From Arthrobacter sp. NEB 688 (GTDB lineage Bacteria; Actinomycetota; Actinomycetes; Actinomycetales; Dermatophilaceae): a DNA stretch of 64,000 bases. Both the position numbers and the translations under genes were made by a program. The notes beneath the pieces are model-generated. The model saw only the letters and a list, made by a program, of their open reading frames with translations. It did no database searches and had not been told where the DNA came from. The stretch covers positions 1 through 64,000 of the forward strand of contig NZ_CP053707.1 in assembly GCF_013201035.1 (NCBI RefSeq). The letters are read 5' to 3'. Position 1 is the stretch's first letter. The number at the start of each line of letters is the position of its first letter. Shown in pieces: positions 1,610-55,027 of this stretch.

Positions 1610-1688
1610 TCCCCGGTTGGTCTGCTGGCAGGGCCCGCCTGACTTTGAATCAGGACAAGCGACGTAGGTTCGATTCCTACCCGGGGAG
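1610..1688 (+). tRNA. tRNA-Gln-like, anticodon TTG
   Basis: Acceptor stem tccccgg (1610-1616) pairs perfectly with ccgggga (1681-1687). A D-arm ggtc/ggcc, an anticodon stem cctga/tcagg with loop ctttgaa (anticodon TTG, Gln) and a T-arm gtagg-ttcgatt-cctac follow. The folded molecule is 79 nt, several nt longer than a usual class I tRNA: there is one extra base between D and anticodon stems and a 9-nt variable region. It could therefore be an unusual but functional tRNA-Gln or a degenerate copy. CCA is not encoded. Its last 13 nt start a 104-bp tandem repeat immediately downstream. Confidence 0.6.
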
Positions 1689-1946
1689 CCGGCGCAGCGG
1701 AGCAAGCCGGCTGCCCGGGGAGGAGTCCGGGGAGCGACGTCCGGACGGCGACGGAGGAGCCGGCCGGACGGTGCGGTGGCCTACCCGGGGAGCCGGCGCA
1801 GCGGAGCAAGCCGGCTGCCCGGGGAGGAGTCCGGGGAGCGACGTCCGGACGGCGACGGAGGAGCCGGCCGGACGGTGCGGTGGCCTACCCGGGGAGCCGG
1901 CGCAGCGGAGCAAGCCGGGGTGCCCGGGGAGCCTGCGCGGTGGCCT
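1676..1946 (+). repeat. 104-bp tandem repeat that begins with the tRNA-Gln 3' end
   Basis: Units start at 1676, 1780 and 1884, each opening with cctacccggggag, which in the first unit is the tRNA's own 3' end (1676-1688). Units 1 and 2 appear identical over 104 bp. Unit 3 matches for 35 nt, then has an internal deletion and resumes near its end (gcggtggcct). Each unit contains a short hairpin right after the tRNA piece (AGCCGGC/GCCGGCT) and a second one (GTCCGG/CCGGAC). The TetR start codon follows 28 nt after the array. Confidence 0.9.
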
Positions 1947-30398: not shown

Positions 30399-30405
30399 TC
30401 TCGAG

Positions 30406-30419
30406 TGGAGCTGAGGGGA
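30406..30419 (-). repeat. copy of tRNA-Ala 3' end
   Basis: tggagctgagggga (plus-strand reading) is identical to 30531-30544, the last 14 nt of tRNA-Ala, 125 bp downstream of it in the direction of transcription. A preceding base match extends it to 15 nt. Both copies are followed by a GC-rich hairpin starting with gaagg. Confidence 0.85.
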
Positions 30420-30481
30420 CCCCGTCGCGAGGAGGCGCTCCGCGCCGGCGACTCCTCCTCGAATCCCCGCGACTCGTCCCA

Positions 30482-30530
30482 CCGATGACGAAGGACCCGG
30501 CGAAAAGCGTGCCGGGTCCTTCGTCATCGG
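30482..30530. terminator. 20-bp stem abutting tRNA-Ala 3' end
   Basis: Perfect 20-bp inverted repeat ccgatgacgaaggacccggc / gccgggtccttcgtcatcgg with a 9-nt loop (gaaaagcgt). It begins at the base after the tRNA discriminator, and pairing can extend three bases into the tRNA itself (30479-30533). Confidence 0.85.
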
Positions 30531-30603
30531 TGGAGCTGAGGGGATTCGAACCCCTGGCCTTCTCATTGCGAACGAGACGCGCTACCAACTGCGCCACAGC
30601 CCC
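30531..30603 (-). tRNA. tRNA-Ala, anticodon CGC
   Basis: 73-nt cloverleaf on the minus strand: acceptor GGGGCTG/CAGCTCC with the G3-U70 wobble that identifies alanine tRNAs, D-arm GCGC/GCGC with AGTTGGTA, anticodon loop TTCGCAA (CGC, reads GCG) and T-arm AGGGG-TTCGAAT-CCCCT. Discriminator A; CCA not encoded. Confidence 0.95.
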
Positions 30604-32138: not shown

Positions 32139-32188
32139 CGAACGTGTGTGAAGAAGCGCGGGATACCGACGTTCTTCACACACGTTCG
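32139..32188. repeat. inverted repeat, family A copy 3 (17-bp arms)
   Basis: Arms cgaacgtgtgtgaagaa and ttcttcacacacgttcg with a 16-nt unpaired middle. The arm matches copy 1 at 1475 more closely than its neighbour 24 bp away. Confidence 0.85.
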
Positions 32189-38222: not shown

Positions 38223-38366
38223 GTGTACAGAAATCGACACTTTCGACGATTGATGCACGCCGACGGGTCTCCGGCCGCGTGCACAAATCGACGCTTTCGA
38301 CGATTGATGCACGCCGACGGGTCTCCGGCCGCGTGCACAAATCGACACTTTCGACGATTGGTGCAC
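38223..38366. repeat. three tandem 54-bp hairpin units (family B)
   Basis: Units with aaatcgac(a/g)ctttcgacgatt start at 38231, 38285 and 38339. Each folds as a hairpin of about 34 nt with near-perfect 12-bp arms (unit 3: gtgcacaaatcg / cgattggtgcac, one mismatch). Units are separated by gccgacgggtctccggccgc. They fill the convergent gap between the 5-FCL and penicillin acylase genes, and may serve as a terminator. Confidence 0.85.
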
Positions 38367-38380
38367 GCTGACGGGGCGGG

Positions 38381-51873: not shown

Positions 51874-51945
51874 GCCCTCGTAGCTCAGGGGAAGAGCACT
51901 TCTCTCCTAAAGAAGGTGTCGCAGGTTCGAATCCTGCCGGGGGCA
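51874..51945 (+). tRNA. tRNA-Arg, anticodon CCT
   Basis: 72-nt cloverleaf: acceptor GCCCTCG/CGGGGGC (one G-T wobble), D-arm GCTC-AGGGGAA-GAGC, anticodon stem CTTCT/AGAAG with loop CTCCTAA (CCT, reads AGG) and T-arm GCAGG-TTCGAAT-CCTGC. CCA not encoded. Confidence 0.95.
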
Positions 51946-52089
51946 CCGAACGCACGCGCGCCAGCGCGGGCGAGCGGGGACCCCGACAGGATGACGGGAG
52001 CCGGAGACGACCGCGAGGAACGAGCGGACGGCGACGGCGGCACCTGCCGGGGGCACCCGCGCGGACGGTGGGCTCCTGCCCGGGGCACC
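51933..52089 (+). repeat. repeats of tRNA-Arg 3' end
   Basis: cctgccgggggcacc occurs as the tRNA 3' end plus two bases (51933-51947). It recurs unchanged at 52043-52057 (period 110) and with one change (cctgcccggggcacc) at 52075-52089. Just before the second copy is GGACGGCGACGG (52026-52037), the same 12-mer present inside each full unit of the tRNA-Gln array (1743, 1847). Confidence 0.85.
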
Positions 52090-54364: not shown

Positions 54365-54454
54365 GTCCCGGGGCTCCGACCCACCGCCCGCTCCCCCTCC
54401 TGGCGCACGTCCGCGAGGCCTCGCCCACCGTCCCCCTCGGGCGGCACCCACCAT

Positions 54455-55027
54455 CCGACTGATTGCGAGTTGTGCTGGCCGACACGCCCCGGCACGGCCC
54501 GTCGAGCGGCGGAACTCGCAATGAGTCGAGGACAGCCCGTTCGGACTGATTGCGCATCCGCCACCTCCGGAGCCCCGTGGCGGCCGGCCCCGGGTGGCGG
54601 ATGGGCAAGAAGTTGCCTGGATCCCCGAGCGTCCCCACCCGACCCGAGCATCCGAGCGGCACCCATCGCCCGATCCCTCACCTCACTGGTGCGGCACCTG
54701 CCATTCGACTGATTGCGAGTTGTGCCGGCCGACACGCCCCGGCACGGCCCGTCGAGCGGCGGAACTCGCAATGAGTCGAGGACAGCCCGTCCGGACTGAT
54801 TGCGCATCCGCCACCTCCGGAGCCCCGTGGCGGCCGGCCCCGGGTGGCGGATGGGCAAGAAGTTGCCTGGATCCCCGAGCGTCCCCACCCGACCGGAGCT
54901 CACGGGCGGCACCCACCGCCCGCCCCCTCACCCCTCGCGCCCCGCCCGCCATCCGACTCATTGCGAGTTGTGCCGCTCGACAGGCCCTGACACGGCGCGT
55001 CGAGCGGCGGATCTCGCAACCAGTCGG
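54455..55027. repeat. about 250-bp tandem repeats with nested inverted repeats (family D)
   Basis: Two full units begin at 54455 and 54705, and a third, partial unit at about 54953. Each opens with an inverted repeat: gactgattgcgagtt (54457-54471) with aactcgcaatgagtc (54513-54527), one mismatch. Inside it, unit 3 carries a second stem CCGCTCGAC / GTCGAGCGG. The rest of each full unit holds another dyad, catccgccac / gtggcggatg. Units 1 and 2 differ by a few bases only. They fill the convergent gap between the c-di-GMP genes. Confidence 0.88.

Follow-up and report, generated by a model that had tools for sequence, protein, structure and literature searches.

The gene for tRNA-Gln(TTG) near the start of the 64-kb window (the whole stretch of DNA that was analysed) is followed by a tandem repeat beginning with the gene's own 3′ end, which raises the questions of whether this is a peculiarity of a single locus or one instance of a wider class of elements, and of whether such an element works as RNA, as DNA or not at all. 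The following features were identified in this region, all on the forward strand.

1610..1690, +: tRNA-Gln(TTG), 81 nt (ARAGORN; Rfam tRNA model 41.3 bits)
1676..1931, +: tandem array, period 104, about 2.5 copies (TRF: 98% matches, score 496)
1676..1690, +: D1, the tRNA's own 3′ end (3′ strand of the T-stem, 3′ strand of the acceptor stem, G73 CC)
1687..1712, +: T, spacer hairpin directly 3′ of the tRNA, with a 7-bp stem using the last tRNA bases (by eye; partly within the predicted long pairing)
1710..1727, +: I1, inverted copy of the tRNA 3′ end, which pairs with D1 or D2
1710..1794, +: first I-E-D hairpin (covariance-model match of 62.7 bits, model R2; fold z −3.35)
1750..1758, +: apical motif GACGGAGGA in core E of unit 1
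1780..1794, +: D2, direct copy identical to the tRNA 3′ end
1814..1831, +: I2, the inverted copy of unit 2
1814..1898, +: second I-E-D hairpin (covariance-model match)
1854..1862, +: apical motif of unit 2
1884..1898, +: D3, likewise a direct copy identical to the tRNA 3′ end

The TRF score of the array is far beyond chance. The sequence-only reading of this locus had stated that units at 1676, 1780 and 1884 each start with the last 13 nt of the tRNA; this was confirmed, the shared stretch being 15 nt long, and a search of both strands of the window located this 15-nt tRNA-Gln end solely at these three positions. Its description of two identical units and an internally deleted third one was likewise accurate: units 1676–1779 and 1780–1883 are identical in 104 of 104 bp, and the copy starting at 1884, as judged by eye, matches the unit for 35 bp, then diverges, lacks the middle part and retains something resembling the unit's end. 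The spacer hairpin T recurs in each unit. Absent from that reading were the inverted copy of the tRNA end (1710–1727 and 1814–1831), the conserved core, and a further unit behind tRNA-Arg(CCT) at 51977–52057.

A coding repeat is unlikely, because the unit length of 104 is not a multiple of 3. A simple consensus scan of positions 1400–2100 revealed no promoter-like or U-tail terminator-like site. The next gene after the array encodes a TetR regulator (219 aa); the DNA 3′ of the array differs between members of the genus (by eye), and control of the TetR gene is therefore unlikely to be a common function of the element. The tRNA itself is the sole tRNA-Gln(TTG) among the 45 tRNA matches of this genome (G000; one 4.08-Mb contig). 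It is unusual in having the lowest tRNA score of the genome (41.3 bits) and a long variable region. Its sequence was found in 83 of the 147 genomes searched (G000 included), with all matches in family f1, and in 11 of the 12 genus genomes, G001 (99% complete) being the only one of the 12 in which it was not found.

The element is characterized by a set order of parts, a covarying fold, an anchored position behind tRNA genes, and arms whose sequence tracks that of the host tRNA. The order is: tRNA end (D), spacer or terminator (T), inverted copy (I), core (E) and direct copy (D), where I is a near reverse complement of the tRNA 3′ end. In the predicted fold of the whole stretch the tRNA 3′ end pairs with the downstream I, and I, E and D together are predicted to form one long hairpin composed of an I:D foot, an asymmetric internal loop, the core stems and a 9-nt tip. 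The tip is mostly GA(C/G)GRA(G/C)GA; of 42 cases, 30 have G-C and 12 have C-G as the inner pair of the tip. D starts at the edge of the T-stem, and the sequence motifs all stand in a fixed orientation relative to the tRNA.

Relative to dinucleotide shuffles, the units have the more stable fold (z −3.02 and −3.35). In an alignment of 9 chosen units, 89.2% of the cells pair and two-sided changes occur in 12 of the 25 pairs (shuffled mean 5.5), giving a covariation score of 0.342 (shuffled 0.098). With 51 distinct rows, in an alignment that was fitted to the model and leans towards it, two-sided changes were observed in 23 of 25 pairs and 298 cells (shuffled 19.3 and 93.4, respectively), and the covariation score reached 0.533, compared to 0.139 for shuffled alignments and at most 0.099 for slid controls.

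Changes in the tRNA are mirrored in the arms. In G006 the T-stem strand reads CCATC (versus CCTAC) and both D and I have changed accordingly, with one mismatch kept, while in G038 nt 59 of the T-loop is C instead of T and I has the complement. Among 53 non-redundant pairs, restricted to those whose I already matches tRNA nt 61–62, I carries the complement of T-loop nt 59 in 47 and of nt 60 in 44. The informative cases at nt 59 are Arg(TCT), where G59 is matched by C (4/4), Gln, where T59 is matched by A in six of seven (G in the other), and Gly, where T59 is matched by A in three of five. Because D lacks nt 59, I matches the tRNA itself rather than D alone. A steady A.G mismatch between I and D persists in the units of the genus.

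The copies of tRNA ends are not confined to the Gln locus. The 45 tRNA genes of G000 were tested for copies of their own ends within 200 nt (200 shuffles per tRNA), and 14 were found to have I or D at p ≤ 0.05. Eight were judged to be carriers: Gln, Arg(TCT), Arg(CCT), Leu(TAA), Pro(GGG), Pro(CGG), Ala(CGC) and Ser(TGA). I alone is significant at 0.01 in five of these; its support is weak in Ala and Arg(CCT) (0.025), and in Ser(TGA) it misses significance (0.095) while D reaches it. Glu(TTC) and Cys were rejected, their copies being explained by the next tRNA gene, and the unclear cases Val(CAC), Leu(CAG), Met and Phe were not counted. Two carriers besides Gln lie within the window.

51874..51947, +: tRNA-Arg(CCT), second carrier
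51977..52057, +: I-E-D hairpin behind tRNA-Arg(CCT) (59.2 bits)
51979..51992, +: I of this hairpin
52015, +: its apical motif GAGGAACGA
52043..52057, +: its D copy
30529..30603, −: tRNA-Ala(CGC), third and weaker carrier
30405..30468, −: tRNA-Ala(CGC) copies, partial inverted at 30459–30468 and direct at 30405–30419 (model match marginal, 13.3 bits, E 1)

The Ala(CGC) copies sit beyond a terminator-like hairpin. Model R1 gave six matches in this genome (two at Gln, and one each at Arg(TCT), Arg(CCT), Pro(CGG) and a site at E 0.25); Pro(CGG) was found although it is not part of the model, and the match at E 0.25 is located in apparent coding DNA.

Comparison with related genomes established that the element is a dispersed family rather than a single odd locus. 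The sequence-only reading had proposed an alignment of this locus in relatives, looking for a variable number of units with the tRNA piece kept, and both were observed: the tRNA-derived piece is kept within 400 nt behind the same tRNA in six of the 12 genus genomes (G000 itself, G003, G004, G005, G006 and G011), where about 1 to 2.5 units are present, and in G006 the piece changed together with the tRNA. In G007 a unit lacking D2 lies 23 kb farther along, where it follows a duplicate of the tRNA 3′ half. No unit was seen behind tRNA-Gln in G008, G009 and G010, and G002 contains other DNA there. Across the 83 Gln loci (200 shuffles each), I was significant (p ≤ 0.01) in 9 and D in 10.

The genome tallies of the wider searches are, owing to the filters of the search tool, lower bounds: R1 matched (E ≤ 0.1) in 17 of 99 genomes of the family, R2 (E ≤ 0.01) in 39 of 297 genomes and 21 of 94 genera of the order, and 14 of 394 genomes of the class had matches. 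At the family level 20 of 27 examined matches (out of 31, the four known G000 matches being omitted) lie behind a same-strand tRNA, and two of the positives, Gln of G003 and of G042, had helped to build R1. Two sets of order-level matches were examined from among all, and 21 of 26 and 19 of 22, respectively, lie behind a tRNA; at the class level this applies to 4 of 14 newly examined matches, two of them outside the order.

A search with the core DNA pattern over a named genome collection yielded 53 matches in 48 stretches. A tRNA is present less than 400 nt upstream of 29 of these matches, in 24 stretches, and a clear D copy was found in 27 of the 29. All 24 tRNA-linked stretches are actinobacterial by title (Terrabacter, Knoellia, Phycicoccus, Nostocoides, Intrasporangium, Humibacillus, Terracoccus, Actinotalea, Pseudactinotalea, Serinibacter, Miniimonas and a Micrococcales MAG). 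The remaining 24 stretches comprise 15 from other phyla, which are chance-like, and 9 from actinobacteria. Two of these nine, L237 and L243, end in apparent tRNA-Ser and tRNA-Leu ends, with no tRNA called. Thirteen isoacceptors entered the comparison of arms (Pro CGG and TGG, Gln TTG, Gly CCC, Arg TCT, CCG and CCT, Ser GCT, CGA and GGA, Leu CAA, Met, and Tyr); Ser(TGA), Leu(TAA) and Pro(GGG) bring the number to at least 16, and Ala(CGC), known by its copies only, is outside this number.

Upstream of three matches (L297, L298 and L304) there is just a fragment of a tRNA end, which looks as though an island had come between the tRNA and its flank, as in G007. In 14 other matches without a tRNA, the upstream D copy scores above 17 in none but L205 (38), and many of them are long-armed. 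L317 is a tandem repeat. In L318 the element lies 58 nt downstream of the end of an ORF, and by eye a few others are located behind stop codons; the core may thus also serve as the tip of ordinary gene-end palindromes.

The analogy with E. coli rtT, drawn in the sequence-only reading, held for the plan of the element and not for its models. The tyrT locus of E. coli K-12 has a direct copy, an inverted copy, a core and a direct copy, i.e. the same plan, and in tyrT/tyrV each of four units includes an inverted stretch similar to GGGGAAGGAT and terminates in the copied end of tRNA-Tyr. The inverted and direct copies of rtT pair at the foot of the predicted fold, as I and D do here, and both systems are tandem, with a structured core between the copies. 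The RF00391 model starts shortly before the inverted copy and extends to the copied CCA, at which the annotated ncRNA rttR ends as well. In contrast to rtT, the element has a longer core of different sequence and is found behind many tRNAs rather than in one operon. RF00391 gave no match at gathering score in the window or in 15 further carrier loci, and none up to E 5 at 1400–2000 (E. coli, as a control, was matched four times by the same search); in the opposite direction R2, run with filters off on the E. coli locus, reached at most 6.8 bits (E 1.4), with no match on the rtT sense strand. The element is built like rtT and is at most a candidate member of the RtT family; the shared plan may reflect either common descent or convergence.

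At gathering score, no Rfam 15 family covered the unit, the window gave only tRNA, and the 15 carrier loci gave only tRNA and small SRP RNA; weak sub-threshold matches of microRNA-model and plastid type were discarded as chance. To our knowledge, rtT has so far been regarded as a peculiarity of a single operon in E. coli. A literature search found no title on such tRNA-linked elements, a weak absence given that the source covers few subscription journals.

The best reading, to which we assign a rough probability of 0.45, is that of a very stable, terminator-like, rtT-like 3′ trailer, which we infer to work at the RNA level. In transcripts running past the tRNA, I would pair with D2 to give a long hairpin, whose foot would imitate the acceptor/T-stem helix of the tRNA itself and end in N73-C(C). 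The I:D2 pairing would keep I off the tRNA, and the hairpin would guard against read-through. It may also present the enzymes of 3′ maturation with a further tRNA-like end, and in this way an rtT-like RNA roughly 100 nt long might be set free. Both such a small RNA and the decoy action suggested in the sequence-only reading are putative. Covariation, fixed orientation, the tRNA-following arms, the start of D at the T-stem edge and the z-scores all speak for such a trailer, as do wobble pairs as rare as those in terminator hairpins of this genome, the same plan in rtT with an annotated rttR ending at the copied CCA, and the occurrence of some tRNA-less core hairpins behind protein genes. Against it stand the negative simple scan for a promoter-like or U-tail terminator-like site at 1400–2100, the patchy distribution (39 of 297 genomes), the lack of preference for G-U over A-C, unlike in tRNA stems, and the match of I to the tRNA at nt 59, which D2 lacks and which could harm folding of the tRNA. 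Moreover, at several loci (e.g. Ala and Pro) I-E-D is placed beyond a hairpin that is already terminator-like, and may therefore seldom be transcribed. Intrinsic terminators behind tRNAs resemble the element in being very stable and nearly all Watson-Crick; the element differs from them in its conserved tip and core, its tRNA-derived arms and its frequent position behind another hairpin, and the simple consensus scan of 1400–2100 found no hairpin followed by a U-run.

The trailer has to be weighed mainly against a working form at the level of DNA, which we consider less likely, though a serious alternative: a DNA hairpin or cruciform with a conserved tip, which at transcription-unit ends might for example bind a protein or have a topological role, any RNA being incidental. 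REP/BIME sequences are palindromes of this kind, located at transcription-unit ends and having a conserved part. The stems of the element are nearly all Watson-Crick, with G-U and A-C equally rare (22 and 19, respectively, among 1198 cells of 53 rows, as taken from the model-fitted alignment). These rows remained of 78 A3 rows after removal of tRNA rows, 13 weak or opposite-strand matches and duplicates; the A4 alignment kept 57 of the 78, cut at E 0.026. In the four apical pairs, G-U occurs once and A-C three times in 42 cases (168 cells). For comparison, the tRNA stems of the genome contain 37 G-U and 1 A-C of 750, and 18 terminator-like hairpins of the same genome contain 5 G-U and 2 A-C of 288. 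The terminators are equally poor in wobble pairs, and their rarity is therefore no mark of DNA in particular; the behaviour of the elements is that of hairpins under selection for stability. The placement of many units beyond terminator-like hairpins and the similar core hairpins with other, long arms away from tRNAs would also suit a DNA palindrome, but this explanation leaves the tRNA-following arms unexplained, and it is these arms, copying the neighbouring tRNA, that distinguish the element from REP/BIME. The Y1 transposase of REP/RAYT systems (PF01797) was found in none of the 12 genus genomes (the control matched in 5 of 14), which further argues against a DNA palindrome of this type; a REP/RAYT element was accordingly rejected.

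We regard it as unlikely that the element has no function and is a mutational by-product, I having been made by fold-back template switching and recombination with the tRNA keeping I and D alike. D-T-I is indeed a quasi-palindrome around T, and identical tandem units that track the tRNA fit homogenisation, but the core E and its tip are kept across many tRNAs and genera while the stems covary, and repair should also have erased the A.G mismatch between I and D that persists in the genus. An origin of I as a complement resembling a primer-binding site of a retroelement was also considered. Retroviral primer-binding sites are complementary to the last 18 or so nt of a tRNA, and I is likewise a complement of the tRNA end that reaches about nt 59; a retro-origin would have it end there, whereas the complementarity in Gln and Leu(TAA) extends beyond nt 58, and for Gly(CCC) nt 59 is matched in three of five cases only. 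The 3′ ends of tRNA genes are attachment sites of integrases, and copies of tRNA ends behind tRNA genes are usually annotated as marks of integrated islands. Second copies of the tRNA-Gln 3′ half (about 46–51 nt, starting near nt 30–34) are indeed present in G007, G017, G025, G052 and G076. However, D is 14–15 nt long and starts at the T-stem, the G007 unit lies on the far side of the second copy, and island insertion yields neither an inverted copy nor a conserved core; an attachment-site remnant was mostly rejected on copy length, start and the position in G007, and its probability is very low. Lower still is that of a sponge in which GGA-rich tips sequester CsrA: the tips do contain GGA or GAA motifs, and 5 of the 12 genus genomes (G000 included) encode CsrA, but G004, G006 and G011 have units without a CsrA match, and G010 and G002 have CsrA with no unit seen behind the tRNA.

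Beyond this lineage, it is possible, though we would hold it with some doubt, that distant bacteria share a hitherto overlooked tRNA 3′-flanking hairpin with a lineage-specific core and with arms continually rewritten to match the last ~17 nt of the neighbouring tRNA. E. coli rtT would be its sole earlier example and the Micrococcales would carry it behind at least 16 isoacceptors, and the hairpins would yield tRNA-end-mimicking RNAs or sites acting on maturation or read-through. A tRNA-following, covarying element of the rtT plan behind many tRNAs turns rtT into a testable class, in which the RNA product, the effect on tRNA 3′ processing or termination, and whatever keeps the arms matched to the tRNA are open to test.

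Several further observations were made in the course of this analysis. In G007, G025 and G052 the second copy of the tRNA-Gln 3′ half is located on the same contig, 4–23 kb away, in the manner of an island-integration site. The CsrA gene of G000, present here in an actinobacterium, occupies positions 231425–231577 of the genome. L313, L315, L318, L320 and L324, in genomes of other families of the class, are long palindromes that have a GCGAGGAACGAGC tip but no called tRNA in the vicinity; their arms vary between sites. A long, near-perfect palindrome of another type (GAACGTGTGTGAAGAACGTC plus its complement) lies upstream of tRNA-Gln at 1477–1524 and again at 32140–32187; similar ones follow Leu(TAA) and Leu(CAG) in G000 and the array in G003, and constitute a separate dispersed repeat. 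The window also contains two further tandem arrays, at 38231–38375 (period 54, 2.7 copies, 95% matches) and at 54433–55026 (period 250, 2.4 copies, 89% matches).
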